From Burkholderiales bacterium (GTDB lineage Bacteria > Pseudomonadota > Gammaproteobacteria > Burkholderiales > Casimicrobiaceae), in contig JANXNI010000085.1 in NCBI GenBank assembly GCA_025354165.1, forward strand, positions 1-44,271: a DNA stretch of 44,271 bases, read 5' to 3'. A program made the translations under genes and the position numbers. Below the pieces are notes generated by a model. The model had not been told where the DNA came from and searched no databases. It saw only the letters and a list, made by a program, of their open reading frames with translations. Shown here piece by piece: positions 1,177 to 42,602 of the stretch (the first letter of the stretch is position 1; each line of letters starts with the position of its first letter).

Positions 1177-1290
1177 GCACAAGTATGAATGTAGATTCTG
1201 AACAGGATTTTTCCTAATGTCGTTTTGATGGTCGACTTTAGTCAATTTATCGCTTTAGCCCCCATATGGCTGTCATTTCAGAGAAAAGCT
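1177..1290. repeat. 114-bp symmetric palindromic element, copy A (left arm diverged)
   Basis: This is the most diverged member of the seven-copy family. The centre GTCGACTT (1231-1238), the right inner block TTAGCCCC (1255-1262) and the right arm AAAAGCT (1284-1290) sit at the family positions 55, 79 and 108. The left arm and left inner block are not recognisable, so the 1177 boundary is inferred from the fixed length. It lies in the divergent gap between mraZ (-) and the DUF1800 gene (+). Apart from this element and the MraZ boxes I see nothing definite in 1021-1452. Confidence 0.65.
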
Positions 1291-1452
1291 ATTCAAAAGC
1301 ATTAACGCCTAGAAATAGTTTGTTACGTTTGTACAACGTGTTTGGGTCGTCGTTTCTCCGACACTCCACGTTGGAAACTCAGCTTCCGGTAAGGATACCA
1401 ATGCCTTAATGGCTGCCGGGCTGGTCTGTCGTAACAATTTCGGGGAAACATC

Positions 1453-3573
1453 ATGCGGGTCAACTCTGCGCTAGTCGCATCCATGGTTGCAACAACAGTC
1501 ACGATTTTGGGAGGCGCTACGGCGCAGGCAGCTGAGCCAGCCGCGACGATTGTTGAATTTTTCAACGCACCAGCGAATAAATATTTCATCACGTCAAATC
1601 CGGCTGATTGGGCGCTGCTCGATCAGTACGCCAGCATCGGCTGGAAGCGCACCGGCGTCACGTTTTCCGCTTACTCGCAAGGTCAGGACGCCAGTGCGCT
1701 TCCGGTATATCGCTTTTATGCGCCCTCCGTTGGCTCACATTTCTTCACGGTCAGCGCGACCGAGCGCGATCAGCTTGCGTTGATCCCCGGCTTCGTCGCA
1801 GAAGGCATCGCCTGGTATGCCATGCCGCCGTCATCGGGTAGTTGTGCCGCCGGGACAGTCGGGCTCTACCGCACGTTTAACAACGGCGCAGCCGCCGGCA
1901 ACGGCCCCGCCAATCATCGCTACTTCGAGGACTACAGCTTCTACCAATCGTACGCTGCCAAAGGCTACGCGCTTGAAGGACTGTCAATGTGTCTGCCGCA
2001 ATCCACCGCAGAGAAGCGCCTGGACGTCACGCGCCTTCTGAAACAGGCGAGCTTCGGCCCCTCGCCCGCAGAAATTGACCGCGTCACCACCTTGGGGACG
2101 ACCGCATGGCTCACCGAGCAATTCGCAGCGACGGCATCACAATACACACCGCGCGACTACTGGCCCAACACACGGCCCGACTCCTGCATCAATGACACCA
2201 CGCTTCCGGTCACACCGACGTCGTACTGCGCGCGCGACAATTATTCGATGTTCCCGACCCAGCTTGAGTTCTACAAGCAGGCGATCACCGGCAACGACCA
2301 ATTGCGCCAGCGCGTCGCATGGGCGTTGAGCCAATTTTTCGTGATCTCGTCGACTGACGTACCGCTGTCCTACGGCATGGGCGACTACCAGCAAATGCTG
2401 CGTGATAACGCGTTCGGGAACTTCCGGACGCTCATGGAAAAGGTCACGCTTCATCCTGCGATGGGCCGCTTCCTCGACATGGCCAATAACCGGAAAGCGA
2501 CGACGACTGGCATCTCGCCGAACGAAAATTACGCCCGCGAAATCTTGCAGCTATTTACCAACGGCGTGAACCTGCTCAACGACGACGGCAGCGAAAAGCA
2601 GGGGCCCGACGGCAAACCAATCGAGGCCTACACACAAGATGAAATCAAGGGCTTCGCCAAGGTCTTCACAGGTTGGACTTACCCGACACGCGCGGGCGTC
2701 GCGCCATCGGCGGGCTTCAACGGGCAGAACCTCGCGGGCACGATGGAGCCTCGTGAAATCTATCACGACACCACCGCCAAAGATCTGCTCGGCAGCACTA
2801 TCGGCCCTGCCAACGGCACGGCCTATGCGGACTTGACCGTTGCGCTCGACAACGCGTTTAGCTACGCCAACGTGCCGCCGTTCTTCTCGCGCTTCATGAT
2901 TCAAAAGCTCGTCACCGGCAACCCGAGCCCGGGCTATGTGCAGCGCGTCGCCACCGTATTTAAAAACAACGGCAGCGGCATTCGTGGCGACCTGAAAGCC
3001 GTGATCACCGCGATCCTCACCGACATTGAGGCACGCGGTGCCGCCAAGTTTGAGCCTACCTACGGCCACATGAACGAGCCAGCTTTGCTGGTGACCGGAC
3101 TCGCCCGCGCGCTCTCCGCAAAGACCGACGGCTACTACTTCTACAACAGCAGCAACGGCCTCGGTCAAACGGTGTTTAGCGCGCCGACAGTCTTTAATTA
3201 CTACTCGCCTGATTACGTCGTTCCCTCGGTGAATGTAAACAGTCCCGAGTTCGGTATTTTTAATTCGACGACCGCTCTGTCGCGCGTCAACTTCGCGAAC
3301 TCGGCGGTCTACGGAACGATAAATATTTCCACCGCGCTCTACGGTGCCACTGGCACTCAGTTTGACTGGACTCCGTTCTCCAGTGTTGCTGCCGATAGCA
3401 ACGCGCTCCTGGATCGCGTCAACGAAGTTATGTTTGCGGGCAAGCTCTCCGCGGCCACGCGTGCCGCCATGAAAACCGCCATTGATACGGTGCCGGTGTC
3501 CGACACCACAGGTCGCGCCCGCGCCGCCCTTTACCTCGCCGTCGCAGCGCCAGAAGCGCAAATTCTTCGCTAG
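1453..3573 (+). CDS. Exported DUF1800 protein with N-terminal DUF5648-like module
   Basis: A 706-residue protein with an N-terminal signal peptide (about 1-26, cleavage near AQA|AEP). Residues about 30-170 resemble DUF5648-type repeats (VEFFNAPANKYFIT; VYRFYAPSVGSHFFT; GLYRTFNNG...NHRYF), a module often found on secreted bacterial proteins. From about residue 185 (KRLDVTRLLKQASFGPS) to the end it is a DUF1800 protein, with internal landmarks NENYAREILQLFTNGV and GFAKVFTGWTY. The biochemical role of DUF1800 is unknown. The ATG follows GGGGAAACATC. The gene ends 32 bp before a DUF1501 gene, a pairing widely seen for these families, so the two are probably one operon acting outside the cytoplasm. 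Confidence 0.88.
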   Translation: MRVNSALVASMVATTVTILGGATAQAAEPAATIVEFFNAPANKYFITSNPADWALLDQYASIGWKRTGVTFSAYSQGQDASALPVYRFYAPSVGSHFFTVSATERDQLALIPGFVAEGIAWYAMPPSSGSCAAGTVGLYRTFNNGAAAGNGPANHRYFEDYSFYQSYAAKGYALEGLSMCLPQSTAEKRLDVTRLLKQASFGPSPAEIDRVTTLGTTAWLTEQFAATASQYTPRDYWPNTRPDSCINDTTLPVTPTSYCARDNYSMFPTQLEFYKQAITGNDQLRQRVAWALSQFFVISSTDVPLSYGMGDYQQMLRDNAFGNFRTLMEKVTLHPAMGRFLDMANNRKATTTGISPNENYAREILQLFTNGVNLLNDDGSEKQGPDGKPIEAYTQDEIKGFAKVFTGWTYPTRAGVAPSAGFNGQNLAGTMEPREIYHDTTAKDLLGSTIGPANGTAYADLTVALDNAFSYANVPPFFSRFMIQKLVTGNPSPGYVQRVATVFKNNGSGIRGDLKAVITAILTDIEARGAAKFEPTYGHMNEPALLVTGLARALSAKTDGYYFYNSSNGLGQTVFSAPTVFNYYSPDYVVPSVNVNSPEFGIFNSTTALSRVNFANSAVYGTINISTALYGATGTQFDWTPFSSVAADSNALLDRVNEVMFAGKLSAATRAAMKTAIDTVPVSDTTGRARAALYLAVAAPEAQILR

Positions 3574-3605
3574 TTGCAGTTGTAGAAACGTCAAGGAACC
3601 GCATC

Positions 3606-4970
3606 ATGAATCTCTCCCGTCGCAACACCCTCAAAGCCCTCTCCGCAGGCGCGCTAGCTTCTGGCCTCAGTGGCTTCACACTCCCGTTCGCCAGCGCGCA
3701 GTCCGCGCCGTCCGACTACAAGGCGCTCGTCTGCATCTTCCTGTTCGGCGGCAACGACGGCAACAACATGATCATCCCCGCCGATGCAGCGGGCTACGCC
3801 GCGTACAACGCTGTTCGCGGACCGGATTCCAACATCAATATCGCGCAAGCGGACTTGCTCACTTTCAAGCCGGGCAACAGCTCGTCAACCTACGGTTTTC
3901 ACCCGGCGATGTCGGCTGTTCACCCGCTGTTCGATCAGGGCAAACTCGCGATCATCGCCAACGCCGGGCCGCTCCTTGCGCCAACGACTAAAGCGCAATA
4001 TCTCGCAGGACTCAATGTCCCGTATCAGCTCTTTTCGCACTCGGATCAACAGGCGCAGTGGCAAAGCACCATCTCCAATCAACCAGCGCGTAGCGGCTGG
4101 GGTGGGCGTCTGGCCGACAGCGTTGCGTCGATGAACGGCAGCAACCCTTTCCCGGTGTTGACCTCCATCGCGGGCTCCACGCTCTACACCACGGGCAACT
4201 CGCAAAGCCCGCTGTCGCTGCCCTCCTCGGGCGGCAGCTTTACGTTAAGCGGATTGACCGGAACCGACGCAATCTCGAAGGCAAGAGCCGCCGCGCTGAA
4301 TGCGCTGTTGCTGCAAGGCAAAGATCACCTGCTGGTCAAAGCCGCCGCCGAGCAAACCGAGCAGGCGATTGCGCTCTCCGCCAAAGTCAACCCAATCATC
4401 ACATCAACCACTTCGAGTGTGACGAACCTGTTCACCACCACTGGCAATAGCCTTGCCGCGCAGTTGTTGCAAGTGGCAAAACTCATCGAAGCACGGGCCA
4501 CCATTGGCCTGTCGCGTCAGATTTTTTTCGTCTCACTCGGTGGCTTCGATACGCACAACAATCAGATCAACACCCAGCAAACCCTGCTTGGCAACGTCAG
4601 CTCGGCGATGAAGTCTTTTTACGACGCAACCGCCGCGTTAGGTGTGGCCAACAATGTCACCACCTTCACGCTATCCGACTTCGGCCGTACCTTCAAACCG
4701 TCGGCAGGTGGCGGCTCCGATCACGCCTGGGGCAATCACCACATGGTCATGGGCGGCGCAGTCAAAGGCGGAGCCATGTACGGCACATTCCCGGTGCAGC
4801 AGCTAAACGGAGTGGACGACGTCACCGGCGAAGGCCGCTGGGTGCCGTCCGTCTCGGTTGATCAATACGCAGCAACACTGGCCACCTGGTTCGGCGTTCC
4901 GGCGAGTGGACTGGCAGCCGTCGCACCGAATATCGGTGCGTTTGCCAACAAGAATTTGGGGTTTGTTTAG
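3606..4970 (+). CDS. Exported DUF1501 family protein (Tat signal)
   Basis: A 454-residue protein with a twin-arginine signal (SRRNTLKALSAGALASG), implying folded export, probably with bound metal. The mature part shows DUF1501 landmarks: FLFGGNDGNNMIIP near residue 45, SLGGFDTHNNQ near 315, TLSDFGRTFKPSAGGGSDHAWGN near 355 and the GGAVKGGAMYGTFP region after it. DUF1501 is distantly related to the alkaline phosphatase/sulfatase fold; the conserved His and Asp residues fit metal binding, but no substrate is known. The RBS AAGGAA lies before the ATG, and it follows the DUF1800 gene closely, so the two products likely act together. Confidence 0.9.
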   Translation: MNLSRRNTLKALSAGALASGLSGFTLPFASAQSAPSDYKALVCIFLFGGNDGNNMIIPADAAGYAAYNAVRGPDSNINIAQADLLTFKPGNSSSTYGFHPAMSAVHPLFDQGKLAIIANAGPLLAPTTKAQYLAGLNVPYQLFSHSDQQAQWQSTISNQPARSGWGGRLADSVASMNGSNPFPVLTSIAGSTLYTTGNSQSPLSLPSSGGSFTLSGLTGTDAISKARAAALNALLLQGKDHLLVKAAAEQTEQAIALSAKVNPIITSTTSSVTNLFTTTGNSLAAQLLQVAKLIEARATIGLSRQIFFVSLGGFDTHNNQINTQQTLLGNVSSAMKSFYDATAALGVANNVTTFTLSDFGRTFKPSAGGGSDHAWGNHHMVMGGAVKGGAMYGTFPVQQLNGVDDVTGEGRWVPSVSVDQYAATLATWFGVPASGLAAVAPNIGAFANKNLGFV

Positions 4971-4999
4971 CGCGGCGCGAACGCATCAGTCGCAGTAAC

Positions 5000-5113
5000 A
5001 GCTTTTCACTACAAGCACCGCTGCAAAGGGGTTAAAAGCAGAACACATTGTGTATCGACTTTTTCACTATTTCGCCTCCAGCCCATATTCAACGGCGGTT
5101 TAGAGAAAAAGCT
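5000..5113. repeat. 114-bp symmetric palindromic element, copy B
   Basis: Blocks at the family positions: AGCTTTT 5000-5006, GGGTTAA 5029-5035, ATCGACTT 5054-5061, CCAGCCC 5078-5084, AAAAGCT 5107-5113. Length is 114 bp with no gap relative to the other copies. It starts 30 bp after the DUF1501 stop. Its right end coincides with the point where a truncated PIN-toxin reading frame becomes recognisable. Confidence 0.85.
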
Positions 5114-5252
5114 GATCGACCCGAAGGATGAGGTGGTGCTTGAGGCGGCGGTGAATGCTGGCAACGTGCCGCTCTTCGCGTACAACATTCGCGACTTCAT
5201 GATCGCCACAACGCGATTCGAGTTGATGGTGCTGACGCTCCGCCGGTTTTAA
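5112..5252 (+). pseudogene. Remnant of a PIN-domain toxin (C-terminal fragment)
   Basis: The frame ending TAA at 5250-5252 reads LIDPKDEVVLEAAVNAGN...PLFAYNIRDF, the typical C-terminal signature of PIN-family (VapC-like) ribonuclease toxins, where the Asp residues coordinate metal. Everything N-terminal of this is missing: upstream lies the 114-bp element ending at 5113. The tail (FELMVLTLRRF) is shorter than in normal homologues, so it may carry a second small deletion. An AAGGAG just after the stop serves the next reading frame, a broken antitoxin, so this was a two-gene toxin-antitoxin operon. Non-functional. Confidence 0.7.
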
Positions 5253-5265
5253 GGAGTATCGCAAC

Positions 5266-5550
5266 ATGACGACCGACGTAACGACCAAACCCGCACCAAC
5301 GATGAGCGCCAAGGCTGCGTATCCGTTGAAGCTACCGCATTCGATCAAGAATGCAGCGTAACGGTTAGCCGCTATTGATGGCGTATCACTCAATCAATTT
5401 ATTGCCGTGGCAGTGGCCGAAAAAATCGGCGCGATTGAAAGCGCCGAGGTCCTCCTGAAATCCCGCGCTGGTGGCGCGAAAGCGTCAGACATGGTGTCCG
5501 TGCTGCGCCGCGCGCCGCGCGGTGTTGTTGCGGAAACAGATCAATTGTGA
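5266..5550 (+). pseudogene. Broken ribbon-helix-helix antitoxin (HicB/Arc-like)
   Basis: Starts at ATG 5266 with AAGGAG at 5251-5256. It reads MTTDVTTKPAPTMSAKAAYPLKLPHSIKNAA, then an in-frame TAA (5359-5361), then RLAAIDGVSLNQFIAVAVAEKIGAIES and on to TGA at 5548-5550. LKLPHSIK...LAAIDGVSLNQFI is a ribbon-helix-helix DNA-binding signature. One base change from a Glu or Gln codon explains the stop. With the truncated PIN toxin just upstream this is a decayed toxin-antitoxin locus. A sequencing error at the stop is possible, but the neighbouring toxin is clearly truncated as well. Confidence 0.72.
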
Positions 5551-5614
5551 GCTTGAAGTTGGAGCGACTAAGCTGCTGCGTCATTGTCTACCCACACTTA
5601 AAGGCAGTCGGCAT

Positions 5615-6229: not shown

Positions 6230-6390
6230 GATGCTCCTTTGCTGTGCGTTGGAGTAGCTGAGTATATTCAGCGTTAACGCCGTTCGCTGCATATTTTGAG
6301 AGCGTAATGCCGTCGTTTTTGGCAATAAGAACATGATGAATAAGCGCAAAAAAGCAAGACACCGAGAGCCAATGGGAGACTGTTGTACAG

Positions 6391-13682: not shown

Positions 13683-13796
13683 AGCTTTTACGAAAAACGC
13701 CTATTGCATGGGGGCTATCAGTCCTTTATGGCAATAGTCGACTTTATTCGTTTTTGCGTTCCAGCCCCATTAAAATAAAGGGTTGATAAAAAAGCT
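13683..13796. repeat. 114-bp symmetric palindromic element, copy C
   Basis: Blocks at family positions: AGCTTTT 13683-13689, GGGCTAT 13712-13718, GTCGACTT 13737-13744, CCAGCCCC 13761-13768, AAAAGCT 13790-13796. It occupies most of the 195-bp gap between dctM and the GntR gene, both on the plus strand, so it is transcribed if the operon reads through. Confidence 0.85.
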
Positions 13797-15301: not shown

Positions 15302-16498
15302 CTAGCCAAATCGCGCCAGACGCTGCGAAAACGCTTGAAGCGGCGCAATATTAGAACTCTCGGCGTTAGCTCGCCACTGCTTCCAGCGCATCGCCAACTG
15401 GTCTTTCGACTCGGTCGAGCGGCCCCAAAGCGCGGTCAAATCCTGACGCATTTGATAGAGCTTTTTAAGCGCATCGCTGTGCGCAAACGCGTCAGCCAAA
15501 CGAGCGCGTTGTACATCTGCAAGTGTGCCCGCATCAGCACGAAAATCTTTCAGCAATTGCTTGAAGTTTGGTAATTCAATTTCGCCTTTTTCAGCGCGCG
15601 CTTTGAGTGCGGCGAATTCAATTTTGGCGGTGCGACGAACGAGCCGCGCATAGTCCTGCATCACGCGGTAGCGATGCGTGATGATGGCTTGCAACGTTTC
15701 GTCAACATCGCCTTCAACAGTACGCAGCTTAAGCGCGGGGGCTTCTTTGCGCACTTTGGCCAAAGCAAGCGCAGACAGCGCACAGATGTACATCCAGCCA
15801 ATGTCGAACTCGTACCAGCGATGCGAGAAACGCGCCGAAGCGCCGAACGCGTGGTGATTGTTGTGCAGCTCTTCGCCGCCAATGATGATGCCCCACGGCA
15901 CAATGTTGGTCGACGCATCTTCGGTCAGGTAGTTGCGGTAGCCCCAGTGATGGCCGGTGCCGTTGATGATGCCCGCAGCCGTGATCGGAATCCAGATTAG
16001 CTGGATACACCACATCGACAGACCCACAAAGCCAAACAACGCGAAGAAAACGACCAGCGGCACGCCCATGCCCTGCCACGTGTATTTGCTGTAAACGTTG
16101 CGCTCAACCCAGTCGTCTGGTGTGCCGTACCCGTAGCGCTCCAGCGTGTCGAGATTTTTCGACTCTTTGCGGTACATGTCTACACCGAAGCGCAACACGC
16201 CCCAATGGCCATGAATCACCGGGCTGTGCGGATCGTCCACCGTGTCGCATTTAGCGTGATGTTTACGGTGAATAGCGACCCATTCCTTGGTGACCATGCC
16301 GGTGGTGAGCCACAGCCATGCGCGGAAAAAATGGGACACAACGGGATGCAAATCAACACCGCGATGCGCCTGGGTGCGATGCAGAAAAATGGTGACCGTG
16401 GCGATGGTGATGTGCGTCGTGCCCAACAGCACCAGCACATAGCCCCACCAGGGCAAATCGATGAGTCCCGAAGTGGCGGACATCAAGAAATCTAACAA
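15302..16498 (-). CDS. Membrane acyl-CoA/acyl-lipid delta-9 desaturase
   Basis: A 398-residue di-iron fatty acid desaturase of the DesC/OLE1 type. The three histidine boxes are visible: HRTQAH (40-45), HRKHH (77-81) and HNNHH (211-215), plus NGTGHHWGYRNY (178-189). Hydrophobic segments flank them (about 18-36, 55-70, 145-180). It introduces a double bond into saturated acyl chains at the inner membrane. From about residue 245 a charged, probably cytosolic C-terminal extension of about 150 residues is unusual for the core family. The start is TTG 16498, supported by AGGAG 8 bases upstream; ATG 16483 lacks an RBS. Confidence 0.9.
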   Translation of the reverse strand: MLDFLMSATSGLIDLPWWGYVLVLLGTTHITIATVTIFLHRTQAHRGVDLHPVVSHFFRAWLWLTTGMVTKEWVAIHRKHHAKCDTVDDPHSPVIHGHWGVLRFGVDMYRKESKNLDTLERYGYGTPDDWVERNVYSKYTWQGMGVPLVVFFALFGFVGLSMWCIQLIWIPITAAGIINGTGHHWGYRNYLTEDASTNIVPWGIIIGGEELHNNHHAFGASARFSHRWYEFDIGWMYICALSALALAKVRKEAPALKLRTVEGDVDETLQAIITHRYRVMQDYARLVRRTAKIEFAALKARAEKGEIELPNFKQLLKDFRADAGTLADVQRARLADAFAHSDALKKLYQMRQDLTALWGRSTESKDQLAMRWKQWRANAESSNIAPLQAFSQRLARFG

Positions 16499-16719: not shown

Positions 16720-16833
16720 AGCTTTTATTTAAAAGACTTATTTCATAAGGGCTAAACGCACATTGCATCATAAGTCGACAATCGCGCTTTTGTGCTGCCA
16801 GCCCCGATGCATACTTCCTTTCACGAAAAAGCT
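16720..16833. repeat. 114-bp symmetric palindromic element, copy D
   Basis: Blocks: AGCTTTT 16720-16726, GGGCTAA 16749-16755, ATAAGTCGAC 16770-16779, CCAGCCCC 16798-16805, AAAAGCT 16827-16833. It lies in the 476-bp divergent gap between the desaturase (-) and the 2TM gene (+). The rest of that gap (16512-16719 and 16834-16974) shows no gene or clear promoter to me. Confidence 0.85.
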
Positions 16834-23129: not shown

Positions 23130-24287
23130 TCAAGGCGAACCAATCCCGTCAAGCTGCGCTAGATAAGCCTCTATCTGCTCCACCGTTGTCCGAGTTGCGC
23201 CAAACAACGCGACCGCACTGGCGATCAAACCAGCTCCTCGGATTCCTAATCGCCAACGCAACAAGAGAACCATGTCAGTCGTAGCGAGAACCTCGCCGTC
23301 GCCATCAATATCCAGTAAGCGTCCACCACCGATGAACTGCCCAATTGAGTACGGCGATTGACCTACCGCGATAGTGTCCACGACCGTGTTGTCGGACGTA
23401 CGAATTACCGACACGTTGTTTGAACCGCTGTTCGCCACGTACAGTCGGTCACCTTTCGGGGTAATACTGATTCCAAACGGAGCATTACCAACCGGAATTT
23501 CCGTAACGATTTCGTTAGTTACCGCGTCAATTACTGTTACTCGTCCAATTGCTGCGTTAGTCACGTATACGCGCTTATCGTCAAGCCCAACCGTTACGCC
23601 AAGCGGGTTGCTTCCAACGTTAATCGTATTGACAACGGTATTGGTTGCAGTGTCAATAACCGACACCGTGTCGGGCCCCAGATTTGCAACATAAACGCGA
23701 GTGCCCGCATGGTTGACTGCAATCCCCCACGCGTCAACTCCAACGGGGATAGTAGCCGCCACCATGTTTGTAGTGGTATCCACGACTGAGACAGTGGCCG
23801 CATTCCCGTTTGCAACGTATAGACGAGTGCCATCGGGATTGACGGCGACGCCGCTCGCTCCAGCCCCTACGTTGACGCAACCGGGACTCGTATTTGTTGC
23901 AGTATCGACAGTGCAAACTTGTCCATCGAATTGCGTGCCATGCGTCACATACAGCCTCGACCCTGATGCGTTGAGCGCTAGCCCTCGCGAAGCCCCCATA
24001 AAAACTGGGGTGCTAGAAACTGTGTTGCGAAACGTACTGACGGAATAAACGCCTGTGGTGTCTGCGGAAACATACGTTTTTGAGCCGCGAGGACTGACAG
24101 CAACAGGCGTGGATAAATATGCCGTCGGTGATTGGACAGTTGTCACCACCAGATTAGTCGCAATATCTATGACCGACACGGTTCCCGATGTCCCGTTAGC
24201 TATGTAAGCAAAGGGGGCTGCTAATGCATAGCCCGATGTAAGTAGTGCGGTCATCAGCAAAGGATAGGTGCGTCGCCAACGTTTCAT
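23130..24287 (-). CDS. Exported YVTN/YncE-like beta-propeller with C-terminal dockerin-like module
   Basis: About 385 residues starting at ATG 24287 with GGAG upstream. A signal peptide (MKRWRRTYPLLMTALLTSGYALA) is followed by about seven repeats of the YVTN type (RLYVANGNAATVSVVDTTTN; RVYVTNAAIGRVTVIDAVTN), which form a seven-bladed propeller. The last ~60 residues leave the repeat pattern: DIDGDGEVLATTDMVLLLRW, LGIRGAGLI and TTVEQIEAYLAQL. The same module closes the two delta-60 proteins at 26753 and 28294. DxDxDG looks like an EF-hand calcium loop of dockerin type. It is likely secreted or periplasmic; the ligand is unknown. Confidence 0.88.
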   Translation of the reverse strand: MKRWRRTYPLLMTALLTSGYALAAPFAYIANGTSGTVSVIDIATNLVVTTVQSPTAYLSTPVAVSPRGSKTYVSADTTGVYSVSTFRNTVSSTPVFMGASRGLALNASGSRLYVTHGTQFDGQVCTVDTATNTSPGCVNVGAGASGVAVNPDGTRLYVANGNAATVSVVDTTTNMVAATIPVGVDAWGIAVNHAGTRVYVANLGPDTVSVIDTATNTVVNTINVGSNPLGVTVGLDDKRVYVTNAAIGRVTVIDAVTNEIVTEIPVGNAPFGISITPKGDRLYVANSGSNNVSVIRTSDNTVVDTIAVGQSPYSIGQFIGGGRLLDIDGDGEVLATTDMVLLLRWRLGIRGAGLIASAVALFGATRTTVEQIEAYLAQLDGIGSP

Positions 24288-24819: not shown

Positions 24820-24958
24820 TGCTGCAATGTATCGCCATTCGCGGCAAGCGTAGACCAATGCTCGTTTCTAGCTTGGCCGCTGTACATCGCAAAGCGATCA
24901 AGTATTGCCTTGTCGCCCCTTCTGCCCGCCCCGAAGCGCGCAGTGTTGTGCGGTCGTA

Positions 24959-25022
24959 GATGCGTTGTCGGGTCACTATTGGCGACGCGTTAGCGGCGCG
25001 TCCGTGACCCGTTCAACGCATC
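24959..25022. repeat. 64-bp palindromic repeat with nested arms
   Basis: GATGCGTTG (24959-24967) pairs with CAACGCATC (25014-25022). Inside, GGGTCAC (24970-24976) pairs with GTGACCC (25004-25010), and GACGCG (24984-24989) with CGCGTC (24997-25002). It can form one long cruciform. It is the first of four different repeats in the 449-bp gap between rsmB and the zinc-ribbon gene, where I see no gene. Confidence 0.75.
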
Positions 25023-25060
25023 CCGCACAACGCGAGCACTGGAGGATCAGGCAGGTAGTA

Positions 25061-25112
25061 GGGGCTAGCCTTTTGGTTACTTTTGGGGCGACTGCCAAAA
25101 GTGACTGGCCCC
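25061..25112. repeat. Imperfect inverted repeat
   Basis: GGGGC (25061-25065) pairs with GCCCC (25108-25112). Internally CCTTTTGG (25069-25076) faces CCAAAAG (25095-25101). The central stretch TTTTGGTTACTTTTGG is of a type recurring in intergenic DNA of many proteobacteria. No coding capacity seen. Confidence 0.5.
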
Positions 25113-25164
25113 GCGCGGCCATATAGCGCGCTGGTGGCAAACAAACCAACTCATTCCACCAAAC

Positions 25165-25200
25165 CCCTCACCCTAACCCTCTCCCGCAAGGGGCGAGGGG
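25165..25200. repeat. CCCTCACCC-type REP-like hairpin
   Basis: A C-rich left half (CCCTCACCCTAACCCTCTCC) followed by a G-rich right half (GCAAGGGGCGAGGGG), able to fold into a hairpin around GCAA. This kind of extragenic hairpin is common in beta- and gammaproteobacterial genomes. Confidence 0.6.
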
Positions 25201-25229
25201 ACTGAGTTGCGCTTCGCGGCGTTTACGGT

Positions 25230-25257
25230 CTGGATTCCCGCCTTCGCGAGAATGACG
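25230..25257. repeat. Single REP-like unit, same family as 18226-18313
   Basis: CTGGATTCCCG (25230-25240) and CGAGAATGACG (25247-25257) match the right-hand unit of the pair at 18283-18313. It ends 12 bp before the rsmB stop, so it may act in 3'-end processing or termination of that transcript. Confidence 0.8.
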
Positions 25258-25268
25258 GCGAGTGAACG

Positions 25269-26530: not shown

Positions 26531-26644
26531 AGCTTTTAGCTACATCGTCTATTTAACATGGGCTAAAAGCTCATTTAGCCATAAGTCGACTTCATTCCAA
26601 AATGGAACCTAGGCCCTGTGTAGCAATGCTTTCATTAAAAAGCT
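26531..26644. repeat. 114-bp symmetric palindromic element, copy E
   Basis: Blocks: AGCTTTT 26531-26537, GGGCTAA 26560-26566, ATAAGTCGACTT 26581-26592, CTAGGCCC 26609-26616, AAAAGCT 26638-26644. It is preceded by TATC, which extends the arm as in copy F. It lies in the divergent gap between rsmB (-) and the delta-60 gene (+). A small local hairpin TTCCA/TGGAA (26595-26607) sits in the right inner interval. Confidence 0.88.
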
Positions 26645-29879: not shown

Positions 29880-30764
29880 TCACAGCACGACGGCAAGCGC
29901 GGCGATGAGCAGAATCACGACAAGCATCAACAGCCAATACAACAGCGACATCAGCGCCAGGCGAAGCAAACGCGCCCACAATCGGCCGCCGTAGACGCGG
30001 CGCATCGCCAGCAGTGCGTATACGGGCATCGCAAACACGAACACAAAGCCGATGTTGGCCGCAGCGGCATCGGACAGCAGCACCAGCACGAGCACCGCCA
30101 GCAACCAGAACGTGTGCAGATGCAGCGCGAACACGATGTGCTCGCCGTAGACCAGACCGCGATTTCGATAGAGCACTTTGAGCATCAATGCGAAAAACGG
30201 AATCAGCGCGAACATCGCGTAGCCCCAAAATTTGAGCATGCGTTGCGGTGTGTCCGCGAAAATCGCGTTGAGTTCATCGGGGCTGTGATCAAAGCGTTTG
30301 CGCAGGTGATTGCACACGCGCTCGGGCAGCCCGGTGCAGAAGAACTTGCCGCCTTCGTATTTCAACTGCGCGCCGCCCACATTTAAAAGCGTGCCTTCAA
30401 GCGGTCGATCTGCCTGAATCGGAGGCCCGCCGCTAACGCCGAACAAACTGATCAGCAGCAACGAGACGATGCTGACCGTCAGGTACAGCTTGAGCGGCAA
30501 CACGTAGCGCCGCTTACGCCCGGCGAGGTAGTCAACTGTGAGCTGACCGGGCCGCGAAACCAGCGCCCACACCGTTTGCGCGAGCGTGCTCTTGACCGAG
30601 ACGTAGTTGCCGAGAAAGTGATCGACGAATTCGGCCACCGACGGCGGATGCGGCGAGGTCTCCTGCCCACATTCCGGACAATAGTTGCCGGGGGCAGGCG
30701 TGCCGCAGTTGCGGCATGGCACGCTGATCGTTGCGACGATGGTGGACGAGGCGGAATCGGTCAT
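29880..30764 (-). CDS. DUF3667-type zinc-ribbon membrane protein
   Basis: About 294 residues from ATG 30764; TTG 30770 is two codons upstream. The N-terminal zinc ribbon is CRNCGTPAPGNYCPECGQ, with four Cys. The next part, LTVDYLAGRKRRYVLPLKLYLTVS, is the conserved DUF3667 core before the first helix. Further hydrophobic segments cluster in the C-terminal half (about 175-195, 210-230, 238-258, 270-294). The role is unknown; the zinc ribbon faces the cytoplasm by the positive-inside rule. It is convergent with the delta-60 pair. Confidence 0.85.
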   Translation of the reverse strand: MTDSASSTIVATISVPCRNCGTPAPGNYCPECGQETSPHPPSVAEFVDHFLGNYVSVKSTLAQTVWALVSRPGQLTVDYLAGRKRRYVLPLKLYLTVSIVSLLLISLFGVSGGPPIQADRPLEGTLLNVGGAQLKYEGGKFFCTGLPERVCNHLRKRFDHSPDELNAIFADTPQRMLKFWGYAMFALIPFFALMLKVLYRNRGLVYGEHIVFALHLHTFWLLAVLVLVLLSDAAAANIGFVFVFAMPVYALLAMRRVYGGRLWARLLRLALMSLLYWLLMLVVILLIAALAVVL

Positions 30765-35716: not shown

Positions 35717-35830
35717 AGCTTTTCTCTGTATCGCCTGTTTTATCTCGGCTAACGGACGCTTTTGGCATTTATCGACTTGGCGATAAATCGGGCAGCAGCC
35801 CAGGTTCAGCCGTCATTACACGATAAAGCT
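35717..35830. repeat. 114-bp symmetric palindromic element, copy F
   Basis: Blocks: AGCTTTT 35717-35723, CGGCTAA 35746-35752, ATCGACTT 35771-35778, GCAGCCC 35795-35801, TAAAGCT 35824-35830. It fills the whole space between the convergent lysR and DUF3108 genes and overlaps the DUF3108 stop codon by 2 bases. Its first 12 bases equal the reverse complement of the last 12 bases of copy A. A local hairpin CGAT/ATCG lies at 35781-35790. Confidence 0.85.
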
Positions 35831-37034
35831 ACTCAAAGCTAACGGCCGTCAGTTCAAGCGATGCGCTCCGTCCTGCTGCGTTCACGAGCTTGATGCGAAA
35901 GGGAACGTAATTCCACTCCGGGGCGAGCCAGAATTGCGCGCTGCCGTTGGGTTTGCCGTCGGCGTCGGGCTTGCGCACGCCTTTCCACAATTGGGTGTTG
36001 ATGGGCTTCGTGCCGCGCTTTCCGGTGAGCGGATCGAGCTCGCCTGTCGCCGCGTTGATCACCTCGTCGCCAATGCGAGTGATGGTGTAGATGTCCAGAC
36101 GACGTGAGGTACCAACGCTCAACGTGACTGCATCGCCCTTGGGCATTGCAAAATAAAACTGCACGATCCATGTCAACGGGTCGTGCGGAGCACCTTCAAA
36201 CGGAATTGGCTCCTTGTCCGGAATGCGAATCACGTGATTGATGTGATCGAAGATCACCTCGCGACGCTTGTCGGGATTGCCGCGCTCCTCGGTGAATTTG
36301 TCGGGACGCAATCCTTCAGTGGTAATCTGGCCTTCCGATTCACCTGTGAAGGTACCAGGATAGAGCAACGCGGCGAGGCCTCGCCCGCGACCAGTGACTT
36401 TGAGCTTGTAGTGGCCGTTGTCATGCGTGAACATAAGGTTGATTGGGCCGACCTCAAACTTTTGCTCACCGAGGTAGGCGGTGTAACCCAGTTCGATTTT
36501 TTTCGGCGGCATGCGCGCGGGTGGTGGCGCAGGCGGGGGCTCAACAACGGGTGGGGGCGCGGGAACGGGCTCCGGAACCGGCTCTGGTGTAGCTTCGGCG
36601 ACGACCGGCGCGGCCGCTGGTGCTGGATCAGGCTCGGCGATTGCATCGATGACAGGCTCGGCGACCGCAACGGCGACCGGCGCTTGCACGGCCGTGATCG
36701 GGCGCCGTTTCGCGGTTTTAGGTTTTGCTTTAGGGGCCGGTTTCGCGGCCGCGACTGCTACCGGTGGCGGCGGCAACTGCATGAATCGCGCAGTAAGCGG
36801 CAGCATCTTTTCGTCCGGCGGCTCGACCGTGACGAAGGCGCCAAGAATCACGTGAACGAGTAATGACGCGATCAGCGCCGCAGCGAATTTGCGCCTGGGT
36901 GTGGAGAACAGTCCGCGTCGCTTCTGCAGACCGCGCACCAGCGAATAACGTCCGTCATCCGACGCATTGGACAAAGCAGGAACCGCCGCAGGTACGGACG
37001 AATTGGCGGGCGCCGAAATCGATGTGTCGGTCAT
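35829..37034 (-). CDS. DUF3108 protein with TonB-like N-terminal architecture
   Basis: A 401-residue protein with a cytoplasmic N-terminus, one membrane helix (about 48-70, KFAAALIASLLVHVILGAFV), then a Pro/Ala-rich linker of about 110 residues, resembling TonB topology, and a periplasmic DUF3108 domain (about 175-401: LGYTAYLGEQKFEVGPINLM; YKLKVTGRGRGLAALLYPGT). DUF3108 proteins are exported and of unknown role, possibly envelope related. A DUF3108 gene directly downstream of purN is a common Burkholderiales arrangement. The linker uses strongly biased Pro/Ala/Val codons. The stop codon lies at the edge of repeat F. Confidence 0.88.
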   Translation of the reverse strand: MTDTSISAPANSSVPAAVPALSNASDDGRYSLVRGLQKRRGLFSTPRRKFAAALIASLLVHVILGAFVTVEPPDEKMLPLTARFMQLPPPPVAVAAAKPAPKAKPKTAKRRPITAVQAPVAVAVAEPVIDAIAEPDPAPAAAPVVAEATPEPVPEPVPAPPPVVEPPPAPPPARMPPKKIELGYTAYLGEQKFEVGPINLMFTHDNGHYKLKVTGRGRGLAALLYPGTFTGESEGQITTEGLRPDKFTEERGNPDKRREVIFDHINHVIRIPDKEPIPFEGAPHDPLTWIVQFYFAMPKGDAVTLSVGTSRRLDIYTITRIGDEVINAATGELDPLTGKRGTKPINTQLWKGVRKPDADGKPNGSAQFWLAPEWNYVPFRIKLVNAAGRSASLELTAVSFE

Positions 37035-37699: not shown

Positions 37700-38838
37700 C
37701 GAAGTTTCAAATCGTCAGAGCCGTAAGTCACACCAATCGGCTCAATCACGACCTGCTTTGGTCCCGCTTCCACACGCCCAACGACCCATGCTTCGATGCC
37801 GCGACTTTTGGCAATCGCAACCGTCTTTTCCGCCTGATCTGCAGCGACAAAGAACGCAAATCCCGCGCCCATGTTGAGCGTGCCGTAGGCTTCAGCGTTG
37901 TCCAGCTTCGCTTCGCGCTGCATGAAAGCAAGCACCGGTGGCACGGGTGGAACGGTGTGAATTCGATAGGTGAGTTCGCTTGTGTGACGCAACAGTTTTC
38001 GCCAGCCGTGGCCGGTGATATTGACGCAGTAGTGCACGGCGACATCTGCTTTGGCGAGCGCTTCGGTCACTGGCGCGTAAAGCGTGGTTGGTGCGAGCAA
38101 CGCTTCGCCAAAGGTTTCACCATTACCCATATCAGTCTGGTAGCCGTTGGCTAAGCGCTCCGTCAACTTGCGGGCAAGAGAAACGCCGTTGGCGTGGATG
38201 CCGCTCGAAGCGAGCATCACGATGGCGTCCCCGGGCACCAGGTTGTCACCGAGCGATAAACGCGACTTTGGATTGACGAGACCCACACACGATGCGCCCA
38301 GATCAATCGTTCCGCCTTCCACGACACCCGCCAGCGCTGGGGTTTCGCCCCCGCCCCAGGATACCCCGCTGATTTCGCAGGCGGCCTTCCATCCCGCGAT
38401 CAAATCCGCGGCACGCTTTTTTTCTGCGAACCAGTCGCTGCCACCGGCTGCCCAATAGGCCTGCACGATGAGCGGCGTCGCGCCGACGGTGATCAGGTCG
38501 TTAACCGCCATCGCGATCGTGTCCTGCGCAATCGCCGCGTAAAAACTTTTGCCAGTTTCGCGATACACGGCGTCGGCGACCAGAATTTTGGTGCCGAGAC
38601 ATTCGACAATCGAGGCGAGATAAAACGGCCCAATGTCGAGCACGTAGGCCGATTCACCGCGCGAAGCAACGATTTCGGAAAGTCCATGCTGCGCCAGTTG
38701 CGCCGCGGTTGCCTTAGCGCTTTGCTGCGCGAGCAACTTGATCGGATCGACCTGATCGTAGTTAACGCCAGCCTGTTCGTAGGTCAGTGCGCCGGGATTT
38801 TTAGGAGCGTGGGGGGAGGCGGCGGAGAAAGCAGTCAT
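37696..38838 (-). CDS. purM: Phosphoribosylformylglycinamidine cyclo-ligase PurM
   Basis: A 380-residue AIR synthetase, fifth step of purine synthesis. Family landmarks: TYEQAGVNYDQVDPIKLL (about 19-36, the usual YxxAGVDxxxxD), GPFYLASIVECLGTK, CEISGVSWGGGETPALAGVV and IHANGVSLARKL. The N-terminal ~15 residues (TAFSAASPHAPKNPGAL) are an extension. The start is only 17 bp from that of the divergent permease gene, so the two promoters overlap or lie within coding sequence. Confidence 0.97.
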   Translation of the reverse strand: MTAFSAASPHAPKNPGALTYEQAGVNYDQVDPIKLLAQQSAKATAAQLAQHGLSEIVASRGESAYVLDIGPFYLASIVECLGTKILVADAVYRETGKSFYAAIAQDTIAMAVNDLITVGATPLIVQAYWAAGGSDWFAEKKRAADLIAGWKAACEISGVSWGGGETPALAGVVEGGTIDLGASCVGLVNPKSRLSLGDNLVPGDAIVMLASSGIHANGVSLARKLTERLANGYQTDMGNGETFGEALLAPTTLYAPVTEALAKADVAVHYCVNITGHGWRKLLRHTSELTYRIHTVPPVPPVLAFMQREAKLDNAEAYGTLNMGAGFAFFVAADQAEKTVAIAKSRGIEAWVVGRVEAGPKQVVIEPIGVTYGSDDLKLR

Positions 38839-38855
38839 GGCGTGATCGTGTTTTA

Positions 38856-40091
38856 ATGCCGCCCACTATGGCTGCAGACCCAAAGATGTCAAAGGAAAAT
38901 TTTAGCCCGCCAGTGGAGGTCGCTCTTCCGACGCCGCTGGAAACCACCTGTAGCGAGGCTTCTGCCGCGCCAATTGCATCGCCGGCAGCGCCGGTCGCAA
39001 CCGGCCCACGCTGGTGGACAGACCTGACGCCGACGCTGCGCGCCTTAGTCGTCGCGGGCTTGGTGATCGCGCTGGGCTATCTGATCGGTGCGCTGGCCCC
39101 GGTGCTGACGCCGTTCATCGCGGGTGCGATCCTTTCATATATTGCGGCTCCAGTGGTGGCGTGGCTAGCGGCGCGGCGGGTGCCGCGTGCGGCTGGGGCG
39201 GTTTTGATCGTGCTTACCATTGGCGCGCTGATCGCCGGACTGGTGTTGGTGGTGGTGCCACTGGTTTCGAACGAAATTTCGCAAATTGCCAAGAAGATGC
39301 CGGAGCTCATCACGCGCGCCCAAACCGAGTGGTTGCCGTGGGTGAACACGAAGCTGGGGACGACAATTTCGTTCGACCTGACGCAGTTGAAATCGTTAGT
39401 GCAGGACAACGCGGGCGCTGTGGGCGATTTGTCAGCGCAATTGGCCGGGTCACTCAAGCTCGGTGGGCAGATGCTGTTGGGCGTCGTCGTCAACGTGATG
39501 TTATTGCCCGTGGTGATGTTCTATCTGCTGCGCGACTGGCCGACGTTGATCGACGGAGTCGACCATCTGGTGCCTCGTGGCGCGCGTCCGATGGTGCGCA
39601 ATCTGGCACGCGAAATCGATGCCGTGCTGTCCGAGTTCCTGCGCGGACAGGGATTGGTCATGCTGGCGCTGGCGACTTACTACTGTATTGCGCTCAAGCT
39701 GGCGGGATTGCAGTTCTGGCTGCCGGTCGGACTGGTGACCGGTTTGCTGGTGTTTATTCCGTACATCGGCTTTGGCATGGGCTTCTTGCTTGGCATGCTG
39801 GCCGCATTGACCCAATTCTCAACGCTGGGCCCGATCGTCGCAGTGGCCGTGGTATTTGGCATCGGGCAGATTCTGGAAGGTTTTGTGCTGACGCCTTATC
39901 TGGTGGGAGATCGCATAGGACTGCATCCGCTGGCCGTGATTTTTGCTTTGATGGCGTTTGGCCAATTGTTCGGTTTTGTTGGCGTACTACTGGCGCTGCC
40001 CGCGAGCGCGGCGCTGCTCGTCGCGCAGCGCGTAATGCAGCGCAGCCTGACTCACGCCGAAAACACGTCGGCCGTTCGCCCAGCGGCTTGA
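38856..40091 (+). CDS. AI-2E family transporter (PerM/YdiK type)
   Basis: A 411-residue membrane protein with about eight helices. After a cytosolic Pro/Ala-rich N-terminus (1-50), helices at about 62-80, 84-105 and 112-140 are followed by the soluble loop (145-205) and the second membrane half. Family signatures: PFIAGAILSYIAAPVV near 88 and the FIPYIGFGMGFLLG region near 300. Members export AI-2 or ions, and in many Burkholderiales a PerM-like gene precedes hda. The gap to hda is 16 bp. ATG 38856 and 38868 are both possible starts. Confidence 0.9.
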   Translation: MPPTMAADPKMSKENFSPPVEVALPTPLETTCSEASAAPIASPAAPVATGPRWWTDLTPTLRALVVAGLVIALGYLIGALAPVLTPFIAGAILSYIAAPVVAWLAARRVPRAAGAVLIVLTIGALIAGLVLVVVPLVSNEISQIAKKMPELITRAQTEWLPWVNTKLGTTISFDLTQLKSLVQDNAGAVGDLSAQLAGSLKLGGQMLLGVVVNVMLLPVVMFYLLRDWPTLIDGVDHLVPRGARPMVRNLAREIDAVLSEFLRGQGLVMLALATYYCIALKLAGLQFWLPVGLVTGLLVFIPYIGFGMGFLLGMLAALTQFSTLGPIVAVAVVFGIGQILEGFVLTPYLVGDRIGLHPLAVIFALMAFGQLFGFVGVLLALPASAALLVAQRVMQRSLTHAENTSAVRPAA

Positions 40092-40107
40092 TGCGGAAGC
40101 GGTAGGT

Positions 40108-40803
40108 ATGGCGATCACGCCACAGATTCCATTTGATTTTTTTCTGCCCGAAGCGCCGCGCTTCGATAACTTTGTCGTGGGTGATAACGGCGAGGCGGTC
40201 GCGCAATTGCGGGCGCTGGCCTCGGGCGATAGTGAAACCGGAGCGCGCGCCCTGGTGCTGTGGGGCGGGCGCTCAGTGGGCAAGTCGCACCTGTTAGCGG
40301 CATTCGCTGCGGACTCGGCCGCCGATACTTTGCTGCTCCATGCGGTCTCGATATTTCCCGCCGATCCGTTCGTCAGCGCTCGAATTCTCTGCGTGGACGA
40401 CGCCGACCGGCTCAACCCCGAGCAACAGGCATGGCTGTTCACGGCGTTTAATCATGTGGCGCAGTCGGGCGGAGTGACGTTGGCGACGGGGCAAACGCCG
40501 CCCGGACGCTGGCCGCTGCGCGACGATATCCGTACGCGGATGGGCAGCGGGCTCGCTTTCGAACTACTGCCGATTCCGCAGGATGACTTGCCATTTGCGC
40601 TGTCGGCCTATGCCGCAGGTCGCGGCTTCGACGTTAGTAATGAAGTGCTCACTTTCCTTTTGAGCCGTCACCAGCGTGATATCGCGTCGCTTTGCCAGAC
40701 GCTGGCGGGGGTGGATCGGCTATCACTTGCCCTGAAACGCCGGGTGACTATGCATTTATTGCGCAGTTACCTGAATGAGACAGCGACGACCCGCCAATCG
40801 TAA
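40108..40803 (+). CDS. hda: DnaA regulatory inactivator Hda
   Basis: A 231-residue AAA+ protein related to DnaA domain III. The N-terminal QIPFDF is the beta-clamp binding motif. Next come a Walker A-like GGRSVGKSH (52-60) and ILCVDDADRL (Walker B) near 91-100. The sensor region is followed by a C-terminal helical part. With the DNA-loaded sliding clamp it stimulates ATP hydrolysis by DnaA (RIDA), resetting initiation. Downstream of the AI-2E gene in an apparent operon. Confidence 0.94.
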   Translation: MAITPQIPFDFFLPEAPRFDNFVVGDNGEAVAQLRALASGDSETGARALVLWGGRSVGKSHLLAAFAADSAADTLLLHAVSIFPADPFVSARILCVDDADRLNPEQQAWLFTAFNHVAQSGGVTLATGQTPPGRWPLRDDIRTRMGSGLAFELLPIPQDDLPFALSAYAAGRGFDVSNEVLTFLLSRHQRDIASLCQTLAGVDRLSLALKRRVTMHLLRSYLNETATTRQS

Positions 40804-41036
40804 AAAAGTTGCGTGATTTAGCGTTTTCCCTTAATTTTGTACAAACAGCCCGTAAAATCGTTGGTTGAGCTTTGAAAACGACATCGTCGAACACGAAAGC
40901 GCAAGCAGGGGAGCTCCGGTTTGTGTTTTTGTTACTTTTTGTGTCAACCGACTAAAAAGGGCGTTCGTTATCTGCTCAGGCTTGTGAAACACCGAGTCAA
41001 GCAAAAAAAATTACCAACTCTCTAGAGGATTTGAAA

Positions 41037-41276
41037 ATGAGCAAACTGTTAACCGCCCTTATCGCTTCGGCTTTCGCCGTTGTTTCTTTCGCACAAGCAC
41101 CGGCCGCTCCTGCAGCTGCCCCTGCTGCTCCAGCCGCTGCACCAGCTAAAGCTGCTGCTCCTGCTGCCGCTCCAATGGCTGCTGAGAAAAAAGCAATGCC
41201 AGCTAAAGCAATGAAAAAAGCAAAAAAAGCAAAAAAAGCAAAAAAAGTTAAAGTAGCTACTAAAGCTGCTGCTTAA
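41037..41276 (+). CDS. Small Ala/Lys-rich exported protein
   Basis: A 79-residue protein from ATG 41037 (AGAGGA upstream). Signal peptide MSKLLTALIASAFAVVSFAQ, then APAAPAAAPAAPAAAPAKAA and a Lys-rich tail of AKKAKKAKK type. The tail resembles histone H1 or AlgP-like C-terminal domains, but the signal peptide argues for an envelope or secreted role. The tail is encoded by a tandem 9-bp unit of GCAAAAAAA type (about 41213-41247), a slippage-prone tract. Strong flanking signals (long leader, clear terminator) suggest high expression. 40804-41036 shows no gene and only weak promoter-like sequence. Confidence 0.8.
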   Translation: MSKLLTALIASAFAVVSFAQAPAAPAAAPAAPAAAPAKAAAPAAAPMAAEKKAMPAKAMKKAKKAKKAKKVKVATKAAA

Positions 41277-41306
41277 TTCGACAGCGCTGTAAGGCGCTTA
41301 GAAGCG

Positions 41307-41338
41307 GAAAAAGCACCTTCGGGTGCTTTTTTCTTTTC
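41307..41338 (+). terminator. Intrinsic terminator of the Ala/Lys-rich gene
   Basis: AAAAAGCACC, loop TTCG, GGTGCTTTTT followed by TCTTTT: a stem of ten pairs with a T-run, 30 bp after the stop. Confidence 0.95.
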
Positions 41339-41382
41339 TGTCCCCACTTTGTGCTCTTGGTTAGCTCACAGATAATTCGCCC

Positions 41383-42456
41383 ATGAAAGTTATTGTCGGT
41401 CTCTCCGGCGGCGTCGACTCCGCCGTCTCCGCTTCGCTCCTGAAAGCGCAAGGCCATGACGTGCTCGGCATTTTCATGAAAAACTGGGAAGACGACGACA
41501 ACGGCGAATATTGCTCAACGCGCGAAGATCTGGTCGACGCGGTGAGCGTGGCTGATCACATCGGCATCGACATCGAAGTCGTCAATTTCGCGAACGAATA
41601 CAAAGACCGCGTGTTTTCGTATTTTCTGGCTGAATATCAGGCGGGGCGTACGCCGAATCCGGACGTGTTGTGCAACACCGAGATCAAGTTCGCGGCTTTT
41701 CTCGACCACGCGATGCGTCTCGGTGCCGACAAAATCGCGACCGGGCACTACGCCGGTGTTCGTGAAACCGACGGTCGTTTTGAGCTTTTGAAAGGTGATG
41801 ACGACACTAAAGATCAGTCGTACTTCCTGCATCGGCTGACACAGGCGCAGCTTTCGAAAGCGATGTTCCCCTTGGCCAATATCCCGAAGCGCGAAGTTCG
41901 CGCGATTGCCGAGCGTGAAGGCATTCCGAACTTTGCGAAGAAGGACTCGACGGGCATCTGCTTTATCGGCGAACGACCGTTCCGCGAGTTTCTGGAGCGC
42001 TATTTACCGAAAACCCCCGGTGAAATGATCACGCCTGAAGGCGCGCACGTTGGCCAGCATCAGGGTTTGGCGTATTACACGCTCGGTCAGCGCGGTGGCC
42101 TGCACATCGGCGGATCGCAGTCGGGTTCGGGCGAGCCCTGGTATGTTGCGGGCAAGGACATGGCGAAAAATTTGCTGATCGTCGTGCAGGGGCGCGAGCA
42201 TCCAGCGCTGCGTCGAACGGCCGTGCCGCTCGTGAACACACACTGGATTTCCGGCAGCGATCCGCGTACGGGTAACGGCTACGGCGGAAAAACACGCTAC
42301 CGGCAGCCCGATGCAGCCTGCGAATATTTGCCTGCCGACGGTTCACGCGCCAATCCGATGCTCAATTTTCACGAAGGACAGTGGGCACCGACGCCGGGGC
42401 AATACGCCGTGCTTTATCGCGACACGGTTTGTCTAGGCGGCGGCGTGATCGCCTGA
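41383..42456 (+). CDS. mnmA: tRNA-specific 2-thiouridylase MnmA
   Basis: A 357-residue enzyme that thiolates U34 of tRNA Lys, Glu and Gln using ATP and persulfide sulfur. The PP-loop GLSGGVDSA is at 6-14. The two catalytic cysteines lie in [11 protein letters not shown] and [12 protein letters not shown]. The insert typical for MnmA ([18 protein letters not shown]) is also present. Length and start are as for the family. It is followed by 114-bp element G. Confidence 0.97.
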
Positions 42457-42488
42457 CGATGTTGGCGTGTGATGCAGTTGTTTTCAGC

Positions 42489-42602
42489 GGCTTTTCGCTG
42501 AAAGCACGTATCCTCAAGGGCTAACGTCGGAATTTTCTATAAGTCGACTTACGTAATTTTGGCGACTTAGCCCATGTGATTGAAGGGCCACAGCGAAAAG
42601 CT
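42489..42602. repeat. 114-bp symmetric palindromic element, copy G (12-bp arms)
   Basis: Blocks: GGCTTTT 42489-42495, GGGCTAA 42518-42524, ATAAGTCGACTT 42539-42550, TTAGCCC 42567-42573, AAAAGCT 42596-42602. The arms extend to 12 pairs here: GGCTTTTCGCTG (42489-42500) against CAGCGAAAAGCT (42591-42602), with only the outermost pair as G-T. GGGCTAA and TTAGCCC are exact complements, and TAAGTCGACTTA (42540-42551) is a perfect 12-bp centre palindrome. The best-formed copy. It lies between mnmA and the 42666 gene. Confidence 0.9.

Follow-up and report, generated by a model that had tools for sequence, protein, structure and literature searches.

A genus-wide family of dyad-symmetric intergenic DNA elements in Burkholderiales with species-specific internal spacing

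The DNA stretch analysed here, a 44,271-nucleotide contig of a Burkholderiales bacterium (JANXNI010000085.1; hereafter the window, contig C29 of genome G000, which comprises 4.72 Mb in 97 contigs), carries copies of a 114-bp dyad-symmetric element, and this element family is real and beyond chance. Considering its abundance, internal spacing, placement and conservation, we favour, with slightly less than even confidence, the reading that an ancient dispersed palindrome has been retained as the putative binding site of a chromosome-organising protein. We advance more tentatively the extended form of this proposal, a genus-wide chromosomal ruler of 300-450 sites every ~9-13 kb, with a hypothetical nucleoid-protein reader, a parallel 1-bp register shift and domain borders encoded in the sequence. 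The comparisons below draw mainly on G038, the closed genome of a second species (1.28 Mb of contiguous sequence analysed; 69.7% identity to G000 over reciprocal-best proteins), and on G228, a third species, of which 400 kb was scanned.

Results

Abundance and taxonomic spread

The preliminary description of the window had listed seven gap-free symmetric copies of 114 bp. Six of these (starting at 5000, 13683, 16720, 26531, 35717 and 42489; Table 1) stand as full elements, each matching its own reverse complement at 58-66 of 114 positions (chance ~28), and the seventh, at 1177, is a half copy with a self-match of 28, covered by the model only over 1226-1292. A first profile, built from the sequence of the six full copies only, matches them with E-values of 2e-23 to 5e-20 (the same copies having built the model) and detects further copies on other G000 contigs at up to 75 bits.

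The expectation that a genome might hold hundreds of copies was borne out. With up to two mismatches, the pattern AGCTTTT-N47-GTCGAC-N47-AAAAGCT has 231 matches in G000, compared with 0 for the reversed pattern. In the 1.28 Mb of G038, models trained partly on the stretch that was later scanned find 91 near-full and 4 partial copies, and the 400 kb of G228 yields 44 hits, with 0 in the reversed sequence in either case. Extrapolation from the three genomes gives roughly 320-450 copies per genome. When gaps were allowed, 364 kb of G000 gave 33 places with E-values no higher than 1, few of them irregular in length; the originally described interval of about 6 kb between copies holds within the window only, as 32 hits (two of them halves) in these 364 kb correspond to one per 11.4 kb.

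The element also occurs in other Burkholderiales, as had been anticipated, both as exact-pattern matches and at orthologous loci. Across the family, a narrow and a broad model match in 16 of the 17 genomes of this uncultured genus and in none of 47 others, in a search with stricter filters, limited to 56 or 53 scored candidates per genome, that weak or very diverged forms may escape. Order-wide, 3 of 300 genomes match, each belonging to the same genus, and in a collection of 84,980 species the exact pattern occurs in 25 stretches, all from uncultured Burkholderiales, Betaproteobacteria or Proteobacteria metagenome-assembled genomes (records near G000 may be left out). Carriage by phages was rejected, the exact pattern having 0 matches in the viral contigs searched. 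An Rfam scan of the window gave 0 matches at the gathering score; three weaker ones, with E-values of 1 or less, all lie outside the elements. The accessible portions of the literature searched contain no description of the element that we could find.

Block architecture and spacing register

Each half of the element consists of the blocks AGCTTTT, TGAAA, GGGGCTA and the core GTCGAC, in this order and mirrored in the other half, within a total length of 114-116 bp. The half consensus in G000 reads TAnC AGCTTTT nnC TGAAA nCnCynCTGCAynGGGGCTAAnGC nnAWWW... AAwAGTC-GAC (hyphen at the centre). Both halves with short flanks carry 92 bits of information in G000 (27 copies) and 63 bits in G038 (28 copies, with two registers mixed), the blocks reaching 1.9 bits per base. 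G228 retains GGGGCTA, and the core of its model is TATCGATA. The A+T period is ~9.5 bp in both G000 and G038; DNA wrapping inferred from such periodicity is not general, the period in G228 being 22 bp.

Within a species, the distances between blocks are fixed with few exceptions, and free variation of length and spacing did not occur. In G000, the distance from the centre is 55 bp to CTTTT in 34 of 37 and 28 bp to GGGC in 42 of 44 measurable halves (26 copies). Among 85 copies of G038, the corresponding distances are 56 bp in 71 halves and 55 bp in 34 for CTTTT, and 29 bp in 131 halves and 28 bp in 18 for GGGC, the rest not being measurable. The perfectly fixed spacing of the preliminary description therefore does not extend across species (28 vs 29 bp). 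Genome-wide counts of the 28 and 29 registers are 53/1 in G000 and 62/3 in G310, and 7/103 in G038, 8/87 in G312, 0/59 in G309, 3/35 in G311 and 0/5 in G163; nine further genomes of the genus have 0 or 1 in all, G288 has none and the controls have 0. The shift can be followed at individual shared loci: both halves go from 28 in G000 to 29 in G038 at four of seven (105013, 129031, 35717 and 42489, with one G000 half at 35717 having 3 of the 4 GGGC bases), while at 23301 and 26531 G038 has 29 in both halves and G000 has 28 in one half only, and at 30632 the G038 core is not measurable. Because a five-gene tree places G000 and G310 as sister genomes (96/90), the 28 register there is perhaps a change in a single lineage, subject to an unsure midpoint root, a long branch for G163 and the omission of G288 and G311.

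Placement and spacing along the chromosome

None of the 91 near-full copies of G038 is centred in a gene called by our home-made coding-potential script. Among G038 gaps of at least 100 bp, elements occupy 29 of 69 between convergent genes, 47 of 302 between tandem genes and 15 of 131 between divergent genes, a preference for convergent gaps with P 4e-6 against tandem and 1.6e-6 against divergent. The tandem copies tend to lie closer to the 3' end (36 of 47), as do 26 of 33 copies when G000 is combined with the initial 400 kb of G038, and in convergent G038 gaps the median distance from the element to the nearest stop is 12 bp.

Copies in G038, at a density of about one per 11-13 kb, are also regularly spaced. 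With one 117-kb gap left out, the coefficient of variation (CV) of the spacings is 0.533, compared with a mean of 0.944 and a minimum of 0.724 in 3000 draws of a null model in which gaps outside the 117-kb gap were drawn by type (P<1/3000), and only 2 spacings fall below 3.5 kb where 18.5 are expected. Contig C72 of G000 behaves similarly (CV 0.60 vs 0.90, P 0.011). G228, where regularity as a whole is not significant, has a deficit of spacings below 3.5 kb (6 observed, 12.5 expected, P 0.011) and none below 5 kb (17 vs 17.1). Twenty 20-kb pieces sampled round G038 contain the element in 19 cases, with a mean of 1.55 and a variance of 0.47 near-full copies per piece; as the pieces were taken at 200-kb steps, shorter gaps may have escaped notice. 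For the origin and terminus, neither GC skew nor the dif, KOPS (FtsK-orienting polar sequence) and DnaA-box patterns gave anything clear in the 1.28 Mb of G038.

The 117-kb gap (G038:C1 ~98-215 kb, L091-L097) has one partial copy at 110.3 kb and a tRNA-Gly gene at 119.4 kb; the 10 proteins scanned in it include three conjugation proteins (TraC, TraG and TraD-like) and one Tn3 transposase. It is probably an integrated conjugative element, judging from this gene content. Since it holds tRNA-Gly and conjugation genes, recently acquired DNA seems to be without the site, in this one case. A topoisomerase gene also lies in the gap.

Conservation at shared loci

The same gene gaps are occupied in different species. 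Among syntenic gaps of G000 and G038, 6 are occupied in both, 0 only in G000, 1 only in G038 and 77 in neither (Fisher 1.7e-8); for G228 and G038 the figures are 5 in both, 3 and 1 in a single species and 69 in neither (1.5e-5), and for G000 and G228, 1 in both, 1 in a single species and 26 in neither. Judged by this shared occupancy, the family is old and vertically kept. At the orthologs of three window gaps, the model matches 8 of the 11 stretches retrieved for 26531-26644 (some partially), 5 of 9 for 35717-35830 and, as model R1, 6 of 16 for 42489-42602 (one cut by a contig end), where the G228 model in turn matches in G228. In all 17 ortholog comparisons at these loci in which an element was found, identity to G000 is higher in the blocks, which were chosen from G000, than in the fillers (e.g., 30/32 vs 39/82). 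At the mraZ locus, the same half element is retained at the orthologous place in G038. Selection on architecture, as originally suggested, is supported by the orthologous loci with a model match and by the hundreds of further copies.

Four single-species cases involve a gap that is short in the species without the element and longer in the one that has it (137 vs -4, 128 vs 35, 197 vs 46 and 129 vs 24), and in two further cases the gap is long in both. Length differences of ~90-150 bp in these four gaps point to past gain or loss of entire elements. Recent copies were not found among 88 G038 elements, in which the best pair is 70% identical and the mean is 53%, and at none of 12 offsets were identical 5-mers found flanking these 88 copies.

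Symmetry without significant covariation

Individual G038 copies are symmetric, with a mean best self-match of 27.6 of 57 compared with 22.2 at random places, and 41 of 91 exceed the random maximum. Variable positions i and 115-i, which would be expected to covary under selection for paired strands, show no significant covariation. In 27 G000 copies, these positions pair about as often as column composition predicts (no formal threshold). The top pair among 88 G038 copies has a z of 3.70, where the 95% limit of the null is 3.85; the diagonals of the dyad remain within -0.6 to 0.9 and sum to about zero. In G228 (42 copies), z peaks at 2.96, with a limit of 3.97. The six full window copies have folding z-scores of -1.2 to -4.4, and their predicted shapes differ. 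Given the lack of significant covariation, each half is seemingly read alone, as in a symmetric protein-DNA site. The structured RNA that had been among the initial candidates is thus disfavoured by covariation tests in three species, and it has no Rfam match in the window; by these comparisons, the element is a DNA site and not a structured RNA.

Elements and other features of the window

The half copy sits in the regulatory gap of mraZ (586-1020, minus strand; Pfam PF02381), where GTGGG repeats upstream of the gene are presumably MraZ boxes. Another incomplete element, at G000 C72:82251-82385, has an intact right half, its left half seemingly swapped for a GC-rich hairpin followed by a T-run that resembles an intrinsic terminator.

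Table 1 Copies of the element in the window
Coordinates	Strand	Feature	Context	Basis
1226..1292	.	Half copy: GTCGAC core and right arm, without left arm		Profile match, self-match
5000..5113	.	Full 114-bp dyad-symmetric element	Between convergent genes, 29 bp past stop of 3606-4970	
13683..13796	.	Full element	Tandem gap, 36 bp past TRAP permease gene	
16720..16833	.	Full element	Divergent gap	
26531..26644	.	Full element	Between divergent genes, upstream of rsmB-like gene	
35717..35830	.	Full element	Reaching stop end of gene 35829-37034 (-)	
42489..42602	.	Full element	Tandem gap, 32 bp past mnmA	

Adjoining rsmB, at 24885-25260, lies a second, unrelated non-coding repeat of ~300 bp that has several copies in relatives at ~72-83% identity. 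Many of these form inverted pairs separated by ~1 kb, as on G307:C9, G198:C10, G310:C134 and G311:C603. The gene at 15302-16498 (minus strand) encodes a DesA-type fatty acid desaturase with a C-terminal DesA/ISL3 alpha-bundle tail (NCBIfam), common to ISL3 transposases.

Discussion

As a plausible mechanism, a symmetric protein or assembly would bind a whole copy, reading the two halves independently at fixed helical positions, and the bound complex could serve as an architectural anchor, e.g., a supercoiling-domain border or a chromosome-bridging site. The location at 3' ends and in convergent gaps, together with the regular spacing in G038, makes an architectural anchor the most likely role. 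If the geometry of the reader shifted in a lineage, hundreds of sites would shift register along with it. The palindrome probably spread first as a mobile element in an ancestor of the genus, after which selection seemingly kept its copies. We favour a co-evolving symmetric reader over transposon decay because it better explains the conservation of the blocks, the helical spacing, the lack of covariation and the species-wide register. Among the three candidates initially considered (a structured RNA, a DNA site for a symmetric protein and a very old mobile palindrome), the DNA site, read by an architectural protein, fits best.

Several observations weigh against this reading. The reader protein is hypothetical, and binding and any topological effect are putative. 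Since every copy was entered into the profile models on both strands, the mirror symmetry of their consensuses is in part a product of construction, and the sub-threshold top covarying pair of G038 lies on the dyad axis. As to the third species, G228, its copy set was grown iteratively from two weak seeds, its per-copy symmetry is weak (23.5 vs 21.5 at random places, with 3 of 42 above the random maximum), the regularity of its spacings does not reach significance (CV 0.81 vs 0.91, P 0.24), its A+T period departs from that of the other two, and 6 of 43 copies lie inside called genes, five of these being low-scoring calls. The CV of G038 rises to 0.92 when the 117-kb gap is included. Within the genus, copies are few in G163 (2.5 Mb) and none is detectable in G288 (2.6 Mb).

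The alternative that survives best, which we nevertheless regard as unlikely, is that a mobile palindrome akin to miniature inverted-repeat transposable elements (MITEs) or REPINs (paired repetitive extragenic palindromic (REP) sequences) spread once in the distant past and has been decaying slowly, with its 3' placement due to purging from promoters and its regular spacing due to target immunity of the transposase. An origin of this kind is probable in itself: the 63-92 bits of symmetric information common to hundreds of copies imply copying, point mutation being an unlikely source, and the ~90-150 bp differences in gap length fit gain or loss of whole elements. REPs likewise reside mainly in tandem and convergent gaps (PMC3733652). 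The very old mobile palindrome of the preliminary description is probably where the family came from, but G038 gives no sign of recent movement, having neither recent copies (best pair 70%) nor identical flanking 5-mers. Moreover, neutral decay would neither preserve the blocks and their spacing amid diverging fillers nor yield a species-specific register across hundreds of copies.

A mover is also not consistent across the genus among transposases of the Y1 or RAYT (REP-associated tyrosine transposase) type. Twelve of the 20 Y1 frames fetched form one RAYT-like group (L259, L261, L262, L267 and L269-L276; 172-189 aa, ~41-86% mutual identity), which includes no frame from G000, G307, G309, G310 (two of its three matches examined), G311 or G312, and the Y1 frame of G000 carries an internal stop. 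Y1 genes are present in 15 of the 17 genomes of the genus, absent exactly in G288 and G163, and they also occur, in several types, in 25 of the 47 other genomes, which are without elements. Among 20 stretches round Y1 genes, 8 contain an element (E<=0.01), within 0.5 kb in two, which is about the background density. RAYT as the mover was rejected on account of these element-free genomes, the several Y1 types and the lack of enrichment of elements nearby.

Proximity to gene ends also raises the idea of a bidirectional transcription insulator, in which the bound complex, or Rho acting there, would halt RNA polymerase at 3' ends. The 12-bp median distance to the nearest stop in convergent G038 gaps and the occupation of 29 of the 69 such gaps agree with it; we consider it improbable all the same, since it does not predict regular spacing and 15 of the 91 copies lie in divergent gaps. 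Intrinsic-terminator-like sites occur within 100 nt at 18 of 77 occupied and 71 of 363 other 3' ends (P 0.44); being equally common, they indicate that the element is no substitute for intrinsic terminators.

Less probable again is a strong DNA gyrase site akin to those in the bacterial interspersed mosaic elements of class 2 (BIME-2) of E. coli or to the strong gyrase site (SGS) of phage Mu. The length and symmetry of the element resemble the E. coli gyrase motif, and an A+T period of ~9.5 bp is seen in two species; the E. coli motif, however, is degenerate with a 10.75-bp period, whereas the blocks here reach 1.9 bits per base and the period in G228 is 22 bp. The gyrase, terminator and RAYT readings are all weaker than that of an architectural site. 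A structured non-coding RNA or hairpin is scarcely credible, despite the palindromic consensus, the folding z-scores and the position of the top G038 pair, given the covariation tests, the dissimilar folds of the six copies and the lack of an Rfam match in the window.

To our knowledge, whether the borders of supercoiling domains are encoded in the sequence is an open question. A dense, regular and conserved family of sites would make the existence of fixed, sequence-encoded borders in bacteria directly testable; E. coli has been described as having 400-500 supercoiled domains (PMC3820752). The species-specific register, moreover, offers a natural experiment in which one reader would co-evolve with hundreds of sites.

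Dispersed palindromic repeats are a known kind of element, and the combination of properties described here was not met in the accessible portions of the literature searched. The sites of parS, matS, Noc and SlmA organise chromosomes genome-wide and are short and biased to the origin or away from the terminus; the present element, in contrast, is ~115 bp long and was found in 19 of the 20 pieces sampled round G038. ERIC (enterobacterial repetitive intergenic consensus) sequences and MITEs are palindromic, 100-130 bp long and intergenic. Unlike these, the element has neither target-site duplications nor similar copies in G038, and its internal blocks are conserved at fixed spacing. REPs are palindromes of 20-40 bp that carry GTAG or CGTC as a tag (PMC3733652). 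The element shares with REPs and BIMEs a dispersed, intergenic, palindromic nature, a high copy number and the preference for tandem and convergent gaps, and differs from them in its length of 114-116 bp, the lack of significant pairing covariation, the regular spacing in G038 and its diverged fillers; the two tags are absent from the high-information blocks, GTAG appearing in one model consensus at a place of low information. REPINs pair two units in inverse orientation around a diverse spacer and are maintained by vertical descent over long times (PMC8049555); they can form hairpins and are duplicated by RAYTs. The inverted units, diverse spacer and long vertical persistence are common to both, whereas the present family has no consistent RAYT among the frames examined and no near-identical copies in G038; it fails the REP, REPIN and MITE tests made here. 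The gyrase motif of E. coli extends over 130 bp symmetrically about the cut, its flanks varying periodically in GC content (10.75-bp period), and is reported to be too degenerate for standard motif finders; gyrase cuts preferentially in BIME-2 and downstream of transcribed loci (PMC6379681). The element resembles this motif and the strong site of Mu in its symmetry and approximate length, and departs from their degenerate, periodic design in being specified block by block.

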